36,921 nt of DNA from Dehalococcoidia bacterium (GTDB taxonomy: Bacteria; Chloroflexota; Dehalococcoidia; CAUJGQ01), in contig DATGEL010000019.1 of NCBI GenBank assembly GCA_035310145.1, positions 1-36,921 of the forward strand, written 5' to 3'. A program made the translations under genes and the position numbers. Each line of letters opens with the position of its first letter. Positions within the stretch are counted from its first letter, which is position 1. A model generated the notes under the pieces. The model saw only the letters and a list, made by a program, of their open reading frames with translations, was not told where the DNA came from and did not search any database. Shown here piece after piece: positions 14,066 through 24,731 of the stretch.

Positions 14066-16969
14066 ATGAGCGCCGCCGACCGCAGTGAGGTCAACCTCTC
14101 AGTGTTTTGGGCGAAGCTCCCCCGCGAGCGTGGCGTGGCACCCGCATTCCACCCGCTCATCTGCCATCTGCTCGACGTGGCGGCCGTGGCCGAGCACATC
14201 TGGAATAAGACGCTGTCCCCATACGCACAGTACCACCTGGCCGCCGGCCTCGGCATGGACGATCTCGATGCCGCCCGCACCTGGGTTGCCGCCCTTGCTG
14301 GCCTGCACGACACGGGCAAAGGCTGCCCCGCCTTCCAGCAGCAGCCCGCGGCAGAGCTGCTGCGCGGCCTGTATGGCGGCGCTCTATTCACGCTGGACGG
14401 ACCGGAAGCTTTGCCGCCGCGCACGCCCCACGGTGTCGTCACCGCCGTCACGCTCGGCGAAATCCTGCGCGATCAGTGTGGAATTGACGGCAAGGTGAGC
14501 CGGCGCCTCGCGCAGGTGGTCGGCGGCCACCACGGCTTCTTTCCTTCAATGAAGGAGCGGAACGAGCTAGGACGCGATCGGGCGAAGGTATTCCCTGTGC
14601 GCGTCGGCAACTGTGCCTGGGAGGACGTGCGCGTGGGCGTCGTGCGGCTCATAGGCGATGCGGTCGGGCTCGACAGCCTGCCGGTGCCAAAGCGGCTGGA
14701 GGATGCGGCGATCATGGCGCTGGCCGAGATTGCCTGCGTCGCCGACTGGATCGGCTCCAACACGCGATTCTTCCCCTTCCTTGCCGATCCGCCGCCGCCA
14801 GCCCCGCCGGTGCTCGATGCGCCTGCCGCCCGCGCATACCTGGATCGTGCCCGCGAGAACGCGCGCCGGGCCCTGCACCGCCTGCACTGGAGCGGCTGGC
14901 GCGCGGCCGCGCAACCCATATCGTTCCGTGGGCTCTTTCCGAGCATCGCGCGACCCTGCGACCTCCAGTCCCGCATGGAGGAGCTGGCGGGCACACTCGC
15001 CGCTCAACTTCCAGCGCTGGTGATCGTCGAGGCGCCGATGGGAGAAGGGAAGACCGAAGCCGCACTCTATGCCGCCGACCGCTGGGGCGTGGCGCCGGGG
15101 CCGAGCGGCGCCTATGTGGCGATGCCGACACAGGCAACGAGCAACCAGATGTTCTCCCGCGTGCGCGAGTTTTTGGAGCGGCGCTTCCGCGGTCAAACGG
15201 TGACGCTGCAGTTGCTGCACGGCCACAGCGCCCTCTCCGCCGAGCTGCAGGCGATGCTGCGCGACAACCCCGACGATCTGGTACCCAATGACGTCTGCGA
15301 CGAGAGTCTGCAAAGCGACGCACAAACGCGCCAGCAGGCCGACGTGATCGCTGGCGAGTGGTTCACCGCCCGCAAGCGCGGCCTGCTGGCGCCCTTCGGC
15401 GTCGGCACCGTAGACCAGGCGCTGCTGGCCGTGCTGCCCACGAAGCATCAGTTTGTGCGCCTCGGCGCCCTCGCCGGCAAGGTCGTGATCTTCGACGAGG
15501 TGCATGCCTACGACGCCTACATGTCGATCATCCTGGAGTGCCTGCTCACCTGGCTGGCCGCACTCGGCTCGCCCGTGCTGCTGCTCTCGGCCACGCTGCC
15601 GCGCTCGCGGCGCGACGCGCTGCTGCGTGCCTACGCACGCGGCCTGCGGCTCGATCTGCCCAAGCCGATCGCGTGCGAGCCGTATCCGCGCCTCTCCTGG
15701 ATCACGGCGACCGGCGCCGGCTCCGCCCCGATCGCCGCATCGGAGCGCAGCACGCGCAGTCTCAGCGTCGACTTCGTAGACGGTGCGATCCCGGTCGATG
15801 GCGGCGAGTTCGCGCTGGGCCGGGCGCTCCAAACGGCGCTGGAACACGGCGGCTGCGCTGCGGTGGTCTCCAACACGGTGCGGCGTGCCCGCGACGTCTA
15901 CGAGGCGTTACGGCCGTTCTTCCCAGCCAAGGACGCGGGCGACGGCCGCCCCGAACTGGAACTGTTTCACGCCCGCTTCCGCTTTCGCGAGCGCGACGCG
16001 CTGGAGAAGCGCACGCTGCTGCGCTTCGGCCGGCCGGAGGGCGAGGTCGAGTTTGAGGACGGGCGCAGGGAGCCGGTGCGGCGTCCTCATCGCGCGGTGC
16101 TCGTCGCCACACAGGTGATCGAGCAGAGCCTCGACTTGGACTTCGACCTGATGGTCAGCGACATGGCGCCGGTCGACCTGCTGCTGCAGCGCTCCGGCCG
16201 CGAGCACCGGCACCCGCGGCCCTCTCGTCCGCCGGGGCTGGAGACGCCGAAACTCTGGATCTGCCGGCCGCAGGGCGAGCGGGAGGGCGTGCCGGTGTTC
16301 GAGGACGGAACGCGCATCATCTACGACGCCCACATCCTGCTGCGCTCCTGGCTGGCGCTGCGAGGGCGCGATCAGATCGCCGTGCCGGGCGATGTCGAGG
16401 CGTTGATCGAGGCGGTGTACGGCCGGGGCGAGCCGCCCGCGGAACTGAGCGACGCGCTGCGCCGCGCCTGGACGGCGACACGAGCCGCGTTCGACAAAGA
16501 CACCGCCGTGGCCGAGTTCGAGGCCGAGCAGGCGCGCATCTGGCCGCCCTTCCATGACGGCAGCGACCTGCTGGACGCGGACCGCCCCGAGCGCAAGGAG
16601 GATTCACCCGATCAGCCCGATGCCTTTCAGGCCCGCACGCGCCTGGGTGACTCGCCCATCATGTTCATCGTGCTGCGACCCGATGAATGGGATGAATACT
16701 GGCGCTTGCCGAAGGCGCGCACACCGACGATCGAGCAGCTCCGCTACCTGTTGGAGCGCTCGGTGGGGCTCACAAACTGGCGGGTGAAGAGGCACCCCGA
16801 CGCCTTCGACCTGGTGCCCGGCGCCTCGCGCTCCGCCACGCTTCGCGGCACACGCTTGGCACGGCTGGACGAGAACAACATCGCGATGCCGAATGGGCAG
16901 GAATATCGCATCAGGCTGGACGAACGGATGGGGGTCGTCGTGGAAGACGCGAACGGAGGCAGCGAGTGA
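14066..16969 (+). CDS. cas3: CRISPR-associated nuclease-helicase Cas3 (type I-E)
   Basis: A 967-residue protein that degrades DNA recruited by Cascade. The N-terminal HD nuclease shows H34, H81-D82 (LAGLHDTGK), H122 and the H155-H156 pair (GGHHGFFP). The SF2 helicase follows: Walker A APMGEGKTEAAL (about 325), MPTQATSNQMF, DEVH (FDEVHAYD, about 478), SATLP (about 505), ATQVIEQSLDLDFD and motif VI LLQRSGREHRH (about 708). A Cas3 C-terminal domain ends the protein. All key residues are present. ATG 14066 has AGAGGAAG about five bases upstream. It is the first gene of the eight-gene cas operon and overlaps cse1 by one base in TGATG. Confidence 0.97.
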   Translation: MSAADRSEVNLSVFWAKLPRERGVAPAFHPLICHLLDVAAVAEHIWNKTLSPYAQYHLAAGLGMDDLDAARTWVAALAGLHDTGKGCPAFQQQPAAELLRGLYGGALFTLDGPEALPPRTPHGVVTAVTLGEILRDQCGIDGKVSRRLAQVVGGHHGFFPSMKERNELGRDRAKVFPVRVGNCAWEDVRVGVVRLIGDAVGLDSLPVPKRLEDAAIMALAEIACVADWIGSNTRFFPFLADPPPPAPPVLDAPAARAYLDRARENARRALHRLHWSGWRAAAQPISFRGLFPSIARPCDLQSRMEELAGTLAAQLPALVIVEAPMGEGKTEAALYAADRWGVAPGPSGAYVAMPTQATSNQMFSRVREFLERRFRGQTVTLQLLHGHSALSAELQAMLRDNPDDLVPNDVCDESLQSDAQTRQQADVIAGEWFTARKRGLLAPFGVGTVDQALLAVLPTKHQFVRLGALAGKVVIFDEVHAYDAYMSIILECLLTWLAALGSPVLLLSATLPRSRRDALLRAYARGLRLDLPKPIACEPYPRLSWITATGAGSAPIAASERSTRSLSVDFVDGAIPVDGGEFALGRALQTALEHGGCAAVVSNTVRRARDVYEALRPFFPAKDAGDGRPELELFHARFRFRERDALEKRTLLRFGRPEGEVEFEDGRREPVRRPHRAVLVATQVIEQSLDLDFDLMVSDMAPVDLLLQRSGREHRHPRPSRPPGLETPKLWICRPQGEREGVPVFEDGTRIIYDAHILLRSWLALRGRDQIAVPGDVEALIEAVYGRGEPPAELSDALRRAWTATRAAFDKDTAVAEFEAEQARIWPPFHDGSDLLDADRPERKEDSPDQPDAFQARTRLGDSPIMFIVLRPDEWDEYWRLPKARTPTIEQLRYLLERSVGLTNWRVKRHPDAFDLVPGASRSATLRGTRLARLDENNIAMPNGQEYRIRLDERMGVVVEDANGGSE

Positions 16970-18597
16970 TGCCTGGCTTCAATCTGCTGGAGGAGCCCTG
17001 GGTTCCGGTGCTGCTGCCCGACGGTGCGCCGGCCGAGCTGCCGCTAGGCGAGACCCTGCTGCGAGCGCACGAGCTGAGCGAGGTCAGCGACGAGTCGCCC
17101 CTGGTCACCGCCTCGCTGCACCGGCTGCTGCTGGCTCTGCTGCACGCGGTGTTCCGCGGCCCGGCCTCGCCCTCCGCCTGGGCCGCGCTCTGGTCCGCCG
17201 GCCGCTTCGATCCGGCGACGCTGGGGCGCTACTTCGCGCAGTGGCGGCCACGGTTCGAACTGTTCGATGCCGAGCGGCCGTTCTACCAGCGTACCGACAT
17301 GGAGACCGTCACCAACGCGTCCTCCGCCCTGCGCCTGGTGCACGACCGCGCGGCCGCAAACAGCAACCGCTTTTGGGACAAGACCGACGACGATGCCGGC
17401 CTAACGCCGGCCGCCGCGGCGCGGGCGCTGATCACGACGCAGGGTTACGCCTTCGCGGGCGGCGTCAGCTTCCCGCTGCGCTTCTACGACGCGCCAAACA
17501 TGCGCGGCTATACGGCGCTGGTGCGCGGCGAGACCCTGTTCCAGACGCTGGCGCTCAACCTGGTGGTCTACAACGCGCAGGAGCCCTTTGCCCGCACCGG
17601 CGCGGATCTGCCGGCTTGGGAGCAGGAGACCTTCGCCGTGCCCGACAAGGACGGCACGAAGCCCGCGGGTTACCTCGACCTGCTCACCTTTCAGGCGCGG
17701 GCGGTGCGGCTGTTGCGCGACGAAGACGGGCAGGTGCGGCGCTGTCTCTTCCGCATGAACATCGTGCTGGACGATCGCCAGGCGCTCGACCCATTCAAGT
17801 CCTACCGCCATGACGAGAAGCTCGGCTGGCGGCCGCGTACGCTGACCCAGGGCCGCGCGGTCTGGCGCGACAGCCATGCCCTCTTCGCGGCGTCTGAGGC
17901 AGGCCGCCGGCCGCGGGTGCTTGACTACGTCGCCCAGATCCCCCAAGCGCTGGACGACGAGGGCTGGAAGGGTGCGCTGCCGCCGCAGCAGCCCAACCTC
18001 GACGTGCTGGGCCTCTGCTCCGAGCCGGGCAAGGCGATCGTGCACTACTGGCGTCAAGAGCGGCTGCCCATGCCGCTCGCCTATCTGGACGACCGGGCGC
18101 TGCAAGACCGGCTGCAGCAGGCGCTGCAGGCCGCCGAAAACGGCTACTCCGCACTCGCGTCGGCGGTGTACACCCTGGCGCGGCTGATCCTGCAGCCGGA
18201 CGGCCGCAAGGGCGACGAGAAGGCGATCCGCGCCCTGGCGGACAGCATGGGCGCCGACGTGCGCTATTGGCGTGCGCTCGACCTCGCCTTCGACGGCTTC
18301 CTGCCCGCGTTGGCCGACGACTGGCAGCCCGTCGGCCCGGCGAAGACCTACGGCGCGCACGCGCTTCCCGCCTGGGGCAAAGAGATACAGCGGGCGGCGC
18401 AAACGTCGTTCCGAGCGGCGGCAGATATGCAGGGCGAATCGGCGCGGGCGCTGCGCGCTGCCGCCGAGGCGGAGCAGGGGCTGCGCATGCGGCTGTCCGA
18501 TCCGCTGCGGCAGCGGCCGCGCGGCGGCGAGCCCGCGAAGCAAACGGAGCCGGCGAGCGCGGGACGCGCTCTTGGAGACAAAGGAGGAGCAGCGTGA
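16969..18597 (+). CDS. cse1: Cascade large subunit Cse1/CasA (type I-E)
   Basis: A 542-residue Cascade large subunit (Cas8e), which recognises the PAM and recruits Cas3. The N-terminus FNLLEEPWVPVLLPDG is the family signature. Typical central features are PFYQR, the AITTQGYAFAGG-like segment and the helical-bundle C-terminus. ATG 16969 overlaps the cas3 stop (TGATG) and has GGAGG nine bases before it; GTG 16966 is an alternative. The C-terminal 40 residues are Arg/Ala-rich and probably unstructured. Confidence 0.96.
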   Translation: MPGFNLLEEPWVPVLLPDGAPAELPLGETLLRAHELSEVSDESPLVTASLHRLLLALLHAVFRGPASPSAWAALWSAGRFDPATLGRYFAQWRPRFELFDAERPFYQRTDMETVTNASSALRLVHDRAAANSNRFWDKTDDDAGLTPAAAARALITTQGYAFAGGVSFPLRFYDAPNMRGYTALVRGETLFQTLALNLVVYNAQEPFARTGADLPAWEQETFAVPDKDGTKPAGYLDLLTFQARAVRLLRDEDGQVRRCLFRMNIVLDDRQALDPFKSYRHDEKLGWRPRTLTQGRAVWRDSHALFAASEAGRRPRVLDYVAQIPQALDDEGWKGALPPQQPNLDVLGLCSEPGKAIVHYWRQERLPMPLAYLDDRALQDRLQQALQAAENGYSALASAVYTLARLILQPDGRKGDEKAIRALADSMGADVRYWRALDLAFDGFLPALADDWQPVGPAKTYGAHALPAWGKEIQRAAQTSFRAAADMQGESARALRAAAEAEQGLRMRLSDPLRQRPRGGEPAKQTEPASAGRALGDKGGAA

Positions 18598-19229
18598 CTA
18601 CAGACACGGCGCCGGCACAGCCGCCGGCAGCGGCGCCACGGCTGGACCCGCAGGCGCGGGGACTGATCGAGCAGCTTGTCGCGCTCGTGGGGAAGGAGGA
18701 CCGCGGCGCCCTGGCGCAGCTCCGGCGCTCCGCGGGCAAGGAGCCCGGCGAGGCGGCGGGCGTCTTTCAGTACGTCGTGCCATACGTGCCCGGGCGGACG
18801 CCCCACCGCACCGATGACCGGAGCGATTGGATCGAGACCTGCCGCTACCTCGTGGCAGGGCTGTTCGCACTGCACCCGCCCGCGCTGCTGCCGAACCGCA
18901 CGGTGGCGCCGATGCCAAGCGACTCGCTGGGCGCCGCCTTCAACCGCATGGCGCCCAGGGGCGCGGGCAACCGCGAGGCGATGGAGCGCCGCTTCTCGCA
19001 ACTGCTGGTGGCCGACGCTGAAGAGCTGCCCGACCGCCTGCGCCAGGCGATCTCGCTGCTGCGCGCTGCCGATCAAGCGGTGGATTGGCGCTGGCTGCTT
19101 GCCGACCTGGAGCGCTGGCGAGCGCGCGACCGCCTGGTGCAGCGCCGCTGGGCGCAGGACTTCTGGCGCCTGCCCGAGCGTGAGCGAGACGAGGACGAAC
19201 CGACGGCAAACAAGACGCCTGGCGAATGA
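18594..19229 (+). CDS. cse2: Cascade small subunit Cse2/CasB (type I-E)
   Basis: A 211-residue small subunit that stabilises the crRNA and the non-target strand. Recognised by its position and by the Cse2 pattern ALAQLRRSAGK, then DWIETCRYLVAGLFALHP, GAAFNRM, ERRFSQLLVADAEELPDRLRQAISLL and the C-terminal WAQDFWRL. GTG 18594 overlaps the cse1 stop as GTGA and follows AAGGAGGAG by about four to five bases. A Pro/Ala-rich N-terminal stretch of about 18 residues precedes the domain. The stop is followed by 76 bases before cas7, the largest gap in the operon. Confidence 0.95.
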   Translation: MTTDTAPAQPPAAAPRLDPQARGLIEQLVALVGKEDRGALAQLRRSAGKEPGEAAGVFQYVVPYVPGRTPHRTDDRSDWIETCRYLVAGLFALHPPALLPNRTVAPMPSDSLGAAFNRMAPRGAGNREAMERRFSQLLVADAEELPDRLRQAISLLRAADQAVDWRWLLADLERWRARDRLVQRRWAQDFWRLPERERDEDEPTANKTPGE

Positions 19230-19305
19230 CAGAAAACGGATAACCATAGCGCGGCTGAGCGCCGCCCCTCGAGTGCGGTACGCGCTCTTGAGATGGAGTG
19301 GAAAC

Positions 19306-20514
19306 GTGTTCGTAGAGCTGCATATTCTGCAGAACTTCGCCCCCAGCAACCTGAACCGCGACGACACCGGCGCCCCCAAGAGCAGCACCTTCGGCGGCAT
19401 CTCCCGCGCCCGTATCTCCAGCCAATCGCTCAAGCGCCGCGTGCGCGAATTCGTGAAGGAGTACGGCCTGCTTTCCAAGCAGAACCTGGCCGAGCGCACG
19501 CTGCGCCTGGTCGACGCGGTGACGCGGCAGCTGGTCGATTTGGGTCGCGAGGAGCCAGCGGCCCGTGCCGCCGTGATCACGGCGCTGGACAAGCTCGGCT
19601 TCAAAACCGAACCGACGGACGGCGACCACACGCAGTACCTGCTCTTTCTTGGCAATGACGAGATCGGGCGGCTGGCCGAGGCGGTGCACGACCACTTCGA
19701 CGCTCTGACCGCCGCTCAGCCTGCAGCCGAGGCCACCGCCGTGCCCGCGGCCGGTGGCCGGCAGCGCAAGGTGCAGAGCGGCGCCAGGGATGTGCCGGAA
19801 GAGGTGCGAAAGGCGCTGGACGCCGTGCTGACTACGGCGAGCTCGGCCGCGGACCTGGCGATGTACGGCCGCATGCTGGCGAACGTGCCGGCGAAGAACA
19901 TCGACGCTGCCTCGCAGGTGGCGCACGCGATCAGCACGCACCGCGTCAGCCCTGAGTTCGACTACTTCACCGCCGTGGACGACCTGAAGCGGCGGGAGGA
20001 GGACGCCGGCGCCGGCATGATCGGCAGCGTCGAGTTCAACTCCGCCTGCTACTACCGCTACAGCAACGTGGACGTTGACCAGCTCGTCCGCAACCTCGAC
20101 GGCGACGCGGAGCTGGCGCGCCGCGCCCTGCGCGCCTTCATCGAGGCAACGATCCTCGCCATGCCCGACGCGAAGCAGAACAGCTTCGCCGCGCAGAACG
20201 CGCCCGGCTTTGTGCTGGCGGTAGTGCGCGACCGCCGGCAGCCCGTCTCGCTGGCCAACGCCTTCGAGGCGCCCGTGCTGCCGCGGGCTGGCGAATCGCT
20301 GACCGGCCTCTCTGTCATGCGACTGGCACGCGCTTTCGAGCAGCACGAGCGCATGTACGCCGGCTACAGCGGCCTGGTGGCGCACTGGGCCTGCGGCGCC
20401 GCCTTCGAGGAGCCGGAGTATCTGCAGAGCCTCACCCCGGCCGCCGTGCCTTCCGTGCACGATCTGGTCCAGCGCACGAACGCGGCCGCCTTCGCGGAGG
20501 GAGCCGTCGCATGA
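19306..20514 (+). CDS. cas7: Cascade backbone subunit Cas7/CasC (Cse4)
   Basis: A 402-residue backbone subunit that coats the crRNA spacer. The N-terminus FVELHILQNFAPSNLNRDD and KSSTFGGISRARISSQSLKRRVRE are hallmarks of type I-E Cas7. Later, MYGRMLANVPAKNIDAASQVAHAISTH and GAGMIGSVEFNSACYYRYSNVDVDQL are equally typical. The start is GTG 19306 with GGAG about seven bases upstream; ATG 19293 lies in another frame. Residues about 140-165 (Ala/Gln/Arg-rich linker) vary in the family. It overlaps cas5 by four bases (ATGA). Confidence 0.96.
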   Translation: MFVELHILQNFAPSNLNRDDTGAPKSSTFGGISRARISSQSLKRRVREFVKEYGLLSKQNLAERTLRLVDAVTRQLVDLGREEPAARAAVITALDKLGFKTEPTDGDHTQYLLFLGNDEIGRLAEAVHDHFDALTAAQPAAEATAVPAAGGRQRKVQSGARDVPEEVRKALDAVLTTASSAADLAMYGRMLANVPAKNIDAASQVAHAISTHRVSPEFDYFTAVDDLKRREEDAGAGMIGSVEFNSACYYRYSNVDVDQLVRNLDGDAELARRALRAFIEATILAMPDAKQNSFAAQNAPGFVLAVVRDRRQPVSLANAFEAPVLPRAGESLTGLSVMRLARAFEQHERMYAGYSGLVAHWACGAAFEEPEYLQSLTPAAVPSVHDLVQRTNAAAFAEGAVA

Positions 20515-21194
20515 CCTCGTTGCTGCTGCGGCTGGACGGCCCCATGCAGGCCTGGGGAATCGCGAGTCGCTTCGGCACACGCGACACCGGCCGCGAACCA
20601 TCCAAGTCTGGCGTCATCGGCCTGCTCTGTGCGGCGCTGGGCAAGCCGCGCGTCGAGCGGCCGGACGACGGCTTCCCCACCCTGGCCGCACTCTCGCGCC
20701 TGCGCATGGGTGTACGTGTGGATCGCGAGGGGATCGTGCAGCGCGACTTTCATACCGTGGGCGGCTCAGCGGGAAGCGGCGGCGCCGACGTGGTTTCATC
20801 TCGCTTCTACCTCGCGGACGCGCGCTTTCTCGTATGCCTGGAAGGTGATGATACGGCGCTGCTGCACCGGCTCGATGCGGCGCTGGCACAACCCGTCTGG
20901 CAGCTCTGCCTCGGCCGGAAGGCGTTCGCGCCCGCCGCGCCGGTGTGGCTGGCCGGCGGGCTCTCCGAAGCGCAGCTCGTGGAGGCGCTGCGTGGCTACC
21001 CGCCGCTGGCCGGTCGGCGCGAGCCTGCCGGGCTGCTGCGATTCGTGATCGAGGATGCCGCGGGCGAGGCGGTGCGCCAGGACGTGCCGCTCTCGTTCAA
21101 CCCGGCCACCCGGCGTTTCGCCCTGCGCCGGGTGCGGACGGAGTTGCTGGAGCCGGCGGCCGCTGGCGTGGCGGCTGGCGAACAGGAGGAGTAG
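20511..21194 (+). CDS. cas5: Cascade subunit Cas5e/CasD
   Basis: A 227-residue subunit that binds the 5' handle of crRNA at the base of Cascade. The signature N-terminus LLLRLDGPMQAWGIASRFGTRDTGREPSKSG is complete. ATG 20511 sits in the ATGA overlap with cas7. Its own stop precedes cas6e by two bases, with the cas6e ribosome-binding site inside its last codons. No catalytic role is expected in type I-E. Confidence 0.96.
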   Translation: MTSLLLRLDGPMQAWGIASRFGTRDTGREPSKSGVIGLLCAALGKPRVERPDDGFPTLAALSRLRMGVRVDREGIVQRDFHTVGGSAGSGGADVVSSRFYLADARFLVCLEGDDTALLHRLDAALAQPVWQLCLGRKAFAPAAPVWLAGGLSEAQLVEALRGYPPLAGRREPAGLLRFVIEDAAGEAVRQDVPLSFNPATRRFALRRVRTELLEPAAAGVAAGEQEE

Positions 21195-21196
21195 CT

Positions 21197-21901
21197 GTGT
21201 ATCTCTCCAGGCTGCTGCTGAACGCGCGCGACTACCAGGTGCGGTGCGACCTGGCCAACTGCCAGGAACTGCACCGCACCTTGCTCTCGGCCTTTCCGAC
21301 CGCGGGCGGCAGCCGCGCCGAGGCGGGGCTGCTCTTTCGGCTTGAGGAGGGCGAGCGATCGGCGCCGCTGGTGATCGCGCAGTCGCGCGGCCGGCCGGAC
21401 TGGGAGCGACTGCGCGTGCGCTCGCCGGCCTACCTGCTCGGCGTTCCCCCGCTCGGCTGGGACTGCAAGGACGTGGCGAGCGCATACGCGTCCGTTCAAA
21501 CGGGGATGCAGTTGCGCTTCCGGCTGCGGGCCAATCCGACGCGCAAGGTCGATACGAAGAGCGGACCCGACGGAGCGCGCCGCAACGGCCGGCGCACCGT
21601 GCTTACGGGTGCGGACCAGAAGCTCGACTGGCTGCGGCGCAAAGCGGAGGCCGGCGGCTTTCGCCTGTGCAGCGTGCACAGCAGCGACGCGGGCGTGCCG
21701 GCCGTCGATGTGCGCCCGCAGGACGATGTATTGGGCTGGCGCTCCGCCGGTGAGCAGCGGAATCGGCTGGTGTTCGGCGCCGTCCTCTTCGAAGGCGTAC
21801 TCGAAGTCACCGACGCCGAGCGCTTCCGCGAAGCGCTGCGCGATGGCATCGGCTCGGGTAAGGCCTACGGCTTCGGTCTGCTCTCTATCGCACCCGCGTA
21901 G
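21197..21901 (+). CDS. cas6e: crRNA-processing endonuclease Cas6e/CasE
   Basis: A 234-residue endoribonuclease that cuts pre-crRNA at the base of the repeat hairpin. The catalytic His is at H26 (CQELHRTLLSAFP), the position known in type I-E enzymes. The C-terminal Gly-rich RNA-binding loop reads IGSGKAYGFGLLSI. GTG 21197 starts two bases after the cas5 stop, with AGGAGGA six bases upstream. The repeat it would process has a 6-bp stem and leaves an eight-base GUGAACCG handle. Confidence 0.96.
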   Translation: MYLSRLLLNARDYQVRCDLANCQELHRTLLSAFPTAGGSRAEAGLLFRLEEGERSAPLVIAQSRGRPDWERLRVRSPAYLLGVPPLGWDCKDVASAYASVQTGMQLRFRLRANPTRKVDTKSGPDGARRNGRRTVLTGADQKLDWLRRKAEAGGFRLCSVHSSDAGVPAVDVRPQDDVLGWRSAGEQRNRLVFGAVLFEGVLEVTDAERFREALRDGIGSGKAYGFGLLSIAPA

Positions 21902-21927
21902 TGCGCAGCGGTTCAGGGGAACTTGCG

Positions 21928-22875
21928 ATGAAAGACCTGCACACCCTGCCCAAAGTGCGCGACAGCTGGAGCTACCTCTACGTCGAGCACTGCCGCATCG
22001 ACCAGGAGGCGAAGGCCATCGCCCTGCACGACAAGCACGGTGTCGTGCCCGTGCCCTGCGCTACGCTCACCACCCTCATGCTCGGTCCCGGCACCACGAT
22101 CACCCACGCCGCCGTGCGGGCGCTCGCCGACAACGGCTGTCTCATCGTCTGGACGGGTGAAGAAGGGGTCCGCCTCTACGCGCAGGGGCTGGGCGAAACA
22201 CGCTCGGCGCGACGCTTTCTCTGGCAGGCGCGCCTTTGCTCCGATCCGCCCTTGCGCCTGCGTGTCGTGCGCCGGCTCTACGAGATGCGCTTTGCAGAGC
22301 CGCTGGATCCCGATCAGACGCTTCAGCAACTGCGCGGGCGCGAAGGCGTCCGCGTGCGCGAGGCGTACGCACGGGCCAGTCGCGAGACCGGCGTGCCCTG
22401 GAGTGGCCGTGCCTTCCGGCGGGACAATTGGGGTGCGTCCGATCCGGTGAATCGGGCGCTGTCGGCGGCGAACTCCTGTCTCTACGGCGTCTGCCAGGCG
22501 GCGATCCTCTCCGGCGGCTACTCGCCGGCACTGGGCTTCATCCATACCGGCAAGATGCTGAGCTTTGTCTACGACGTCGCCGACCTTTACAAGGCTGATG
22601 TTACGATTCCGCTCGCCTTCCAGACAGCCGGCGCGGCGGCAGCCGGGGTCGAGACCTCGGTGCGCAAAGCCTGCCGCGACGCGTTCAAGTCCTCGCGCCT
22701 GCTGCAGCGCATCCTGCCCGACATCGACCGTGTCCTCGGCGTCGAGGAAGCGGAGGAGTCTGCATTCGACGCCGACGAAGCATTGCCCGGCGGTCTCTGG
22801 GATCCGGAGCAGGGCGAAGTCGCCGGCGGCGTGAACTGGGACGATGAGGGCGCTGCGGCGCCGCCGACGGGTTGA
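21928..22875 (+). CDS. cas1: CRISPR integrase Cas1 (type I-E)
   Basis: A 315-residue metal-dependent integrase for spacer acquisition. Catalytic residues are present: E139 (GREGVRVR), H206 (GFIHTGK) and D216/D219 (SFVYDVADLYK). The N-terminus (KVRDSWSYLYVEHCRID) is typical of Cas1e. ATG 21928 has AGGGGA about seven bases upstream; an in-frame GTG at 21901 lies too far from a ribosome-binding site. The C-terminal 40 residues are acidic (VEEAEESAFDADEA, then GGVNWDDEG), an extension often seen in actinobacterial and chloroflexal Cas1e. Confidence 0.97.
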   Translation: MKDLHTLPKVRDSWSYLYVEHCRIDQEAKAIALHDKHGVVPVPCATLTTLMLGPGTTITHAAVRALADNGCLIVWTGEEGVRLYAQGLGETRSARRFLWQARLCSDPPLRLRVVRRLYEMRFAEPLDPDQTLQQLRGREGVRVREAYARASRETGVPWSGRAFRRDNWGASDPVNRALSAANSCLYGVCQAAILSGGYSPALGFIHTGKMLSFVYDVADLYKADVTIPLAFQTAGAAAAGVETSVRKACRDAFKSSRLLQRILPDIDRVLGVEEAEESAFDADEALPGGLWDPEQGEVAGGVNWDDEGAAAPPTG

Positions 22876-22885
22876 GGTGGGGGCG

Positions 22886-23158
22886 ATGATGGTCTTAATC
22901 CTGGAACGGGTGCCGGTGTCCCTGCGCGGCGAGCTGACGCGTTGGCTGCTGGAAGTGCGGGCTGGCGTCTTTGTCGGCGATGTTTCGGCGCTGGTGCGCG
23001 AGAAGCTGTGGGAGCTCGTCGAACAGCGCGCGCGTGAGGGCGCCGCCGTGCTGGTGCATAACGCCGACAGCGAGCAAAGCTTTGCCCTGCGCCTGCACGG
23101 CGAGCCTTCGCGAGACATCGCCGAGTACGACGGCCTCTACCTCGTCCGCAAGCGGTAA
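22886..23158 (+). CDS. cas2: Cas2 (type I-E, CT1978-like)
   Basis: A 90-residue partner of Cas1 in the integrase complex. MMVLILERVPVSLRGELTRW with EVRAGVFVGDVSALVREKLWELV is the Cas2e pattern. There are two adjacent ATG codons (22886 and 22889); GAGGTGG lies five to eight bases upstream. The usual C-terminal strand (SFALRLHGEPSRDI) is complete. Its stop lies only 19 bases before the first CRISPR repeat. Confidence 0.96.
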   Translation: MMVLILERVPVSLRGELTRWLLEVRAGVFVGDVSALVREKLWELVEQRAREGAAVLVHNADSEQSFALRLHGEPSRDIAEYDGLYLVRKR

Positions 23159-23177
23159 AAGCTCGCGAATTCGAAGC

Positions 23178-24731
23178 GTGGTCCCCACGCACGTGGGGGT
23201 GAACCGCCGGGGGGCCGCCGGCCGGCAGCGGCGCGCGGGTGGTCCCCACGCACGTGGGGGTGAACCGATCGGCGTACATTCCGCGCGATGCACCGTGCCG
23301 TGGTCCCCACGCACGTGGGGGTGAACCGAACAAGTGGGTGACGGGCAAAACCCCCTACAAGTGGTCCCCACGCACGTGGGGGTGAACCGCTGAGCGCGTA
23401 GCGCGGATTCACCAGGGGAATGTGGTCCCCACGCACGTGGGGGTGAACCGGATCGCGCCAGCATCAACGACCTGATCCTGCGGTGGTCCCCACGCACGTG
23501 GGGGTGAACCGTATTTGGCGGCGCTGGGGCGTGACCCGCAAGCGTGGTCCCCACGCACGTGGGGGTGAACCGTTGCCGTCGAAGTCCACCAGCGCGCGGA
23601 TCTTGTGGTCCCCACGCACGTGGGGGTGAACCGGCCGGCGAGCGCCGCGGCCTTCGCCCCGGCGTGTGGTCCCCACGCACGTGGGGGTGAACCGGCGTTG
23701 CTCGTGGCGCACTGTCTGGTCGGCCCGTGGTCCCCACGCACGTGGGGGTGAACCGACCAGTCAGCCGGCCGCGGACACGTTCAAACCGTGGTCCCCACGC
23801 ACGTGGGGGTGAACCGACCGCGTTCGACCAGGGGCCGGGCAAACTCTGGTGGTCCCCACGCACGTGGGGGTGAACCGTGGGCGTGGATTGCGACGCCGGT
23901 GCAGTACGAGTGGTCCCCACGCACGTGGGGGTGAACCGGACACGGCGGCGGCGCAGGATAAAATCACGGTGTGGTCCCCACGCACGTGGGGGTGAACCGC
24001 AGCGGCATACGCGCACGTTTCGGCCTGGATCGTGGTCCCCACGCACGTGGGGGTGAACCGGAGTTCCACCATCTGACGGCACGGGGTCTCATGTGGTCCC
24101 CACGCACGTGGGGGTGAACCGGCGTCTTCGTGGAACGTCAGATAGGCGCCGCCGTGGTCCCCACGCACGTGGGGGTGAACCGCCGCGGCGGGCGGCACTG
24201 GGGGCGCGGGCGCGGTGGTCCCCACGCACGTGGGGGTGAACCGGAGGGCGTCAAGGCGGCCTCGGCGCCGTTCGCGTGGTCCCCACGCACGTGGGGGTGA
24301 ACCGGTGAAGCGTGGCGGCAGCAACCCGCCGGCGAAGTGGTCCCCACGCACGTGGGGGTGAACCGCGCGGGTAGCCCGGCTTCTGGCCCGCTTTGACGTG
24401 GTCCCCACGCACGTGGGGGTGAACCGCGGCCCCGCCGCGCGCGAGCCGCCCCCGGTCGGTGGTCCCCACGCACGTGGGGGTGAACCGCTGGAGCAGCCGA
24501 TCGTGCTGCGCGCCGCGGGGTGGTCCCCACGCACGTGGGGGTGAACCGCCTTGTCCAATCCTGCGCCAGCGTCGCCAGCAGTGGTCCCCACGCACGTGGG
24601 GGTGGACCGGCGCGACTCGGCGGCCGGATTGCCGCGCAGCAGTGGTCCCCACGCACGTGGGGGTGAACCTCGACGCCGCGGCCCTCTCCGAGGGCCTCTT
24701 GCGTGGTCCCCACGCACGTGGGGGTGAACCC
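23178..24731 (+). CRISPR. Type I-E CRISPR array, 26 repeats, 25 spacers
   Basis: Twenty-six 29-nt repeats start every 61 bases from 23178 to 24703, so all 25 spacers are exactly 32 nt. The repeat opens GTGGTCCCCAC, closes GTGGGGGTGAACCG, and folds into a CCCCAC/GTGGGG stem with a GCAC loop. The eight-base 3' end GTGAACCG is the crRNA 5' handle expected for type I-E, so transcription is on the plus strand from the cas2 side. The first 23 repeats look identical. Repeat 24 (24581) has A to G near its end, and repeats 25 and 26 end in T and C instead of G, which marks the old, trailer end. Spacers are GC-rich and none was seen to recur. Confidence 0.99.

Follow-up and report, generated by a model that had tools for sequence, protein, structure and literature searches.

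The type I-E leader of the locus studied here probably overlaps the 3' end of cas2, with its distal element embedded in the cas2 coding sequence. This reading, drawn from comparison of DNA sequences, is well supported for a group of related loci and fairly supported for the locus in the window (the whole 36,921-nt stretch of DNA that was analysed). The original prediction offered two alternatives, a leader located within cas2 or an array transcribed together with the cas operon. A fixed spacing to the array, codon-independent conservation and a noncoding counterpart of the same element all argue for the first; against it, the window itself is without the consensus motif of its relatives.

A complete type I-E locus with a 19-nt gap

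The type I-E operon of the window is complete. Matches to NCBIfam and Pfam profiles identified cas3, cse1, cse2, cas7, cas5, cas6e and cas1 as one block on the + strand (14066..22875), together with cas2e. The cas2e core ORF encodes 90 aa from the homologous Met (22886..23158, + strand), whereas the longest ORF starts at 22844, and its product is a full-length type I-E Cas2 covering positions 1-87 of 87 in the profile TIGR01873 and 1-86 of 86 in PF09707. The distance of 19 bp first noted between cas2 and the first repeat was borne out: the TAA stop codon occupies 23156-23158, repeat 1 (29 nt, GTGGTCCCCACGCACGTGGGGGTGAACCG, + strand) extends from 23178 to 23206, and the gap between them is exactly 19 nt (23159..23177, + strand), annotated as the stretch of putative leader that is noncoding and includes the leader-repeat junction.

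The CRISPR array (23178..24731, + strand) comprises 26 repeats and 25 spacers with a period of 61 bp. Repeats 1 to 23 match one another fully; one mismatch each makes the last three (24581, 24642 and 24703) degenerate. Since mismatches are confined to these last three repeats, decay lies at the far end and the leader end lies at cas2; the repeat orientation is that of Escherichia coli K-12, and the placement of the leader on the cas2 side, as first proposed, is upheld. The repeat is of the type I-E kind (28-29 nt, a predicted hairpin, a GTGAACCG 3' part and a period of about 61 bp), the predicted hairpin having a fold energy z of -1.05, which is not beyond that of shuffles. No second array with the window repeat (up to 3 mismatches) was found in the 148-contig genome. 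The GC content is 60-65% in 60-nt segments from 23100 to 23199, and a noncoding AT-rich leader of at least about 60 bp is absent. A simple scan of 22600-23300 for sigma-70 type promoters, with other promoter types outside its scope, gave no match.

The locus was compared within a set of 150 cas2e loci that comprised the window itself, members of its class and phylum, members of a second phylum, and loci of named genomes. Because similarity to the window Cas2 and to the type I-E Cas2 model guided the sampling, the counts cannot be read as frequencies across type I-E systems as a whole. We kept 136 distinct loci, each with an array after cas2, and dropped L029 (without match), L188 (without the motif column), seven exact duplicates, and L070, L053, L201, L095 and L013, in which no array was found. 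Matches in the phylum of genome G398 were places already known from the window's phylum and were left out, and the viral contigs scanned for cas2e-array loci gave no usable locus. Across the 136 loci, the gap between cas2e and repeat 1 has a median of 44 nt and is below 50 nt in 77; it is 24 nt or less in 41, and a short gap is thus common among the surveyed relatives rather than a local accident. In L017 and L018, from the window's taxonomic class, the gap is only 1 nt and the spacing described below is as in the window, and L167 and L198, which lie near the window in the Cas1 tree, both have the -55 spacing. The case named at the outset as telling against the prediction, a deletion confined to this locus while its relatives keep normal leaders, was not seen, as these four loci share the spacing.

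Trans arrays with leaders of their own were also considered (among the matches listed for 32 genomes; 6 of these re-searched; 9 regions) and set aside. Most second arrays in the six re-searched genomes start where a contig ends and appear to be the distal parts of the same arrays. Being further cas2 loci, L162 and L155 were added to the locus set; genome G402, that of L052, holds at least these two further cas2-array loci, with different repeats.

Fixed spacing and conserved codons across related loci

Spacing here denotes the distance to repeat 1 from the Asp codon in the D-[FYL]-[DE]-G motif of Cas2; in the window this residue is Glu, its codon lies at 23123 and the spacing is 55 nt. The spacing is 53-57 nt in 30 of the 136 loci and 77-78 nt in 12. 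Cas2 tail length trades off against gap, the spacing being held while the stop codon shifts: the 55 group contains 12 different gap/tail pairs (gap range 1-22 nt), and the 77 group contains 6. Among the 48 loci with a gap of at most 45 nt and a tail of at most 60 nt, 27 have a spacing of 54-56, whereas permutation of the gaps placed a mean of 9.6 and a maximum of 18 loci at 54-56, none of 20,000 permutations reaching as high a count. The signal stays when relatives are thinned at 80, 70 and 65% Cas2 identity (102, 77 and 57 representatives, 0/5,000 each). Moreover, cyanobacterial plasmid loci collected only once the rule had been fixed, from Acaryochloris marina (54) and Synechococcus elongatus (56), agree with it; elsewhere in the later-fetched set, no array was found in L236 and L248, L241 and L246 are without the motif column, and L235 and L247 repeat L060 and L063. 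Short-gap loci off both spacings are L231 (84) and L234 (92) from Streptomyces, L244 (104) and L245 (95).

A Cas1 tree was built for 74 of the 136 loci (Cas1 of at least 200 aa, distance of at most 128, Cas2 below 140 aa). On this tree, the 77 label needs seven changes, at least three of them on starred branches. The step from 55 to 77-78 amounts to 22-23 bp and is no exact multiple of 10.5. In the 77 group, the same word, placed 22-23 bp further out at roughly two helical turns, may still serve.

Conservation at the DNA level was assessed with a codon test that took each locus's own codon use as background, for 42 cluster loci versus 87 control loci. In the cluster loci, the third base before the Asp codon is A in 34 of 42 (10.6 expected, z 9.2) and the third base of the Asp codon itself is C in 38 of 42 (21.7 expected, z 5.6). 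These two positions rank first and second among the Cas2 columns of the cluster loci, and neither is among the top columns listed for the 87 control loci. The codon-independent conservation at the cas2 3' end that the original prediction looked for is thus present in related loci. When only loci sharing the D-F residues are compared, an exact AGACTTC occurs in 26 of 32 cluster loci versus 4 of 38 others; four non-cluster loci carry AGACTTC at other distances (67, 111, 119 and 119). The shorter word AGAC occurs in 33 of the 42 cluster loci and is missing from the other nine. At the leader-repeat junction, the 33 loci of the 45-58 display group have A at -3 in 32 cases and G at -2 in all 33.

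A noncoding counterpart exists in L174, L175, L178 and L191, where Cas2 reads QVEG or QIEG, the gap is 65 nt and GACTTC is found outside the coding sequence, at exactly -55. Three of these loci are in the Cas1 tree and form one clade nested in the branch to which most loci of the 55 group belong; hence, the noncoding GACTTC counts as one event.

In the window, the slot inside cas2 from -56 to -50 (23122..23128, + strand), the proposed upstream Cas1-Cas2 recognition element, reads CGAGTAC and codes for part of A-E-Y; the relatives' consensus there is AGACTTC, and the spacing of 55 is kept. The classmate L017 reads CGAGAAG at the slot, with the E variant as in the window and the same spacing. 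No match to PF00216 (HU/IHF) was found in the window genome (G000, contig C19; 99.8% complete), while 9 of 14 control genomes gave a match in the same search, which makes E. coli-style bending by IHF/HU unlikely. The window Cas1 is 43% identical to that of E. coli and keeps the positions that we take to be catalytic.

The E. coli leader and the Streptomyces loci

According to the review PMC10011333, IHF binds the E. coli leader from -9 to -35, and the DNA at -50 to -55, which is needed, is bent onto Cas1-Cas2. Leaders are usually described as noncoding DNA, as in PMC12638026. CRISPR-1 of E. coli K-12 resembles the window locus in subtype, in the order cas1-cas2-leader-array, in repeat orientation and in the place of the proposed distal element. 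It differs by a gap of 105 nt instead of 19, by a noncoding TTGGTGG at the slot and by the presence of IHF, whereas the slot of the window lies inside the cas2 coding sequence. E. coli reads GTTGGTGGG at -57 to -49. In 35 long-gap loci, selected on Cas2 motif and gap length with E. coli among them, the strongest conserved block outside the junction is noncoding and lies at -56 to -52; Thermus and some other long-gap members are without it. The AGACTTC embedded in cas2 of the 55 group spans -56 to -50, and this coincidence of place, though not of letters, argues that AGACTTC occupies the functional slot of the E. coli leader. As neither a fully noncoding leader nor an IHF match was found, the window locus appears to carry a variant, rather than a standard example, of the E. 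coli type I-E leader.

The cas2 3' end of E. coli K-12 (L222) shares a 12-mer, TTAAGGTTGGTG, with the CRISPR-1 leader, where it spans -62 to -51 and overlaps the upstream element (p 0.012); as the best of 63 tests, it is kept only as a lead. The idea that long-gap leaders generally contain a copy of the cas2 end was rejected, since 2 of the 63 sets (62 loci and E. coli) gave p <0.05 and none gave p <0.01. Santiago-Frangos et al. 2021 reportedly deals with distal leader motifs phased to the repeat, and a set distance from the repeat is likewise seen for the element proposed here. In the literature searched, which lay mostly outside subscription papers and did not include the most relevant leader-motif survey, no description of a leader inside cas2 was found.

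Plasmid type I-E loci of Streptomyces and Kitasatospora are like the window in their short gaps (16-20 nt) but unlike the 55 group in both the word and its position. Seven of nine loci (L231, L234, L279-L282 and L284) carry GCAAA within the 3' end of cas2 at -32/-33, and the word is kept in two reading frames, which suggests that it may be another embedded element. The word is not shown at the cas2 end of L283 and L285, and the conservation table for these genera leaves out both.

Proposed model and alternative explanations

We propose a model in which the leader-repeat junction would fall in the 19-nt gap and the distal element, corresponding to the bent DNA of E. coli, would fall on the Cas2 codons around D/E-[FYL]-[DE]-G. 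Cas1-Cas2 would thereby read cas2 coding sequence at the slot. Selection would hold the distance from the element to repeat 1 at ~55 bp (~77 bp in the second group), leaving the stop codon free to move between them. In the window genome, DNA bending would presumably depend on some factor that is not a recognisable HU/IHF protein.

Shared descent could produce a similar picture if the rarity of short indels had kept the distance constant and the codons had been inherited, with no function at the DNA level. Many of the loci are indeed related, the 55 spacing covers much of one Cas1 branch, and the phylogenetically independent pairs test was underpowered, with only four usable pairs on starred branches. 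Nevertheless, we consider descent alone unlikely, since the spacing pattern outlasts thinning to 65% identity, just two codon columns stand out so strongly, GACTTC is also found in noncoding DNA at -55 and the 77-78 spacing recurs on separate branches. That the cas2-embedded element is a promoter or another transcription signal for the array, and not an integration signal, seems very unlikely: neither a spacing to the repeat kept within +/-2 nt nor a jump of 22-23 bp is expected of such a signal, and the sigma-70 scan, limited to that promoter type, found no match, although E. coli transcription starts near the same place, about 50 nt upstream of repeat 1 (PMC10011333).

The window locus itself calls for one more alternative, namely a decayed leader that has preserved the spacing but lost the recognition letters, leaving adaptation weak or absent. 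The slot reading CGAGTAC instead of the consensus and the lack of an HU/IHF match are what such decay would leave behind, but the 23 identical leader-proximal repeats, the intact-looking operon, the resemblance of Cas1 to that of E. coli with its presumed catalytic positions kept and the E variant shared with L017 at the same spacing make it rather unlikely. A leader that overlaps cas2 remains our preferred reading, with fair support for the window and good support for its relatives.

On a broader scale, we tentatively put forward that, across a large type I-E branch, cas2 could be bifunctional DNA that encodes Cas2 and provides the integration address, the adaptation module thus carrying its own target to every place it moves to. 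The noncoding leaders of L174, L175, L178 and L191 could then be later copies out of cas2, so that the direction of evolution would run from the embedded to the noncoding element, and Actinobacteria could have embedded a different element independently.

If the leader lies partly in cas2 codons, tools that seek noncoding AT-rich leaders would miss such an element, and a cas2 recoded for expression could abolish acquisition in cis. Moreover, a spacing set at 55 or 77-78 would offer a direct way to study how Cas1-Cas2 gauges distance and bends target DNA in an organism where no IHF is detectable.
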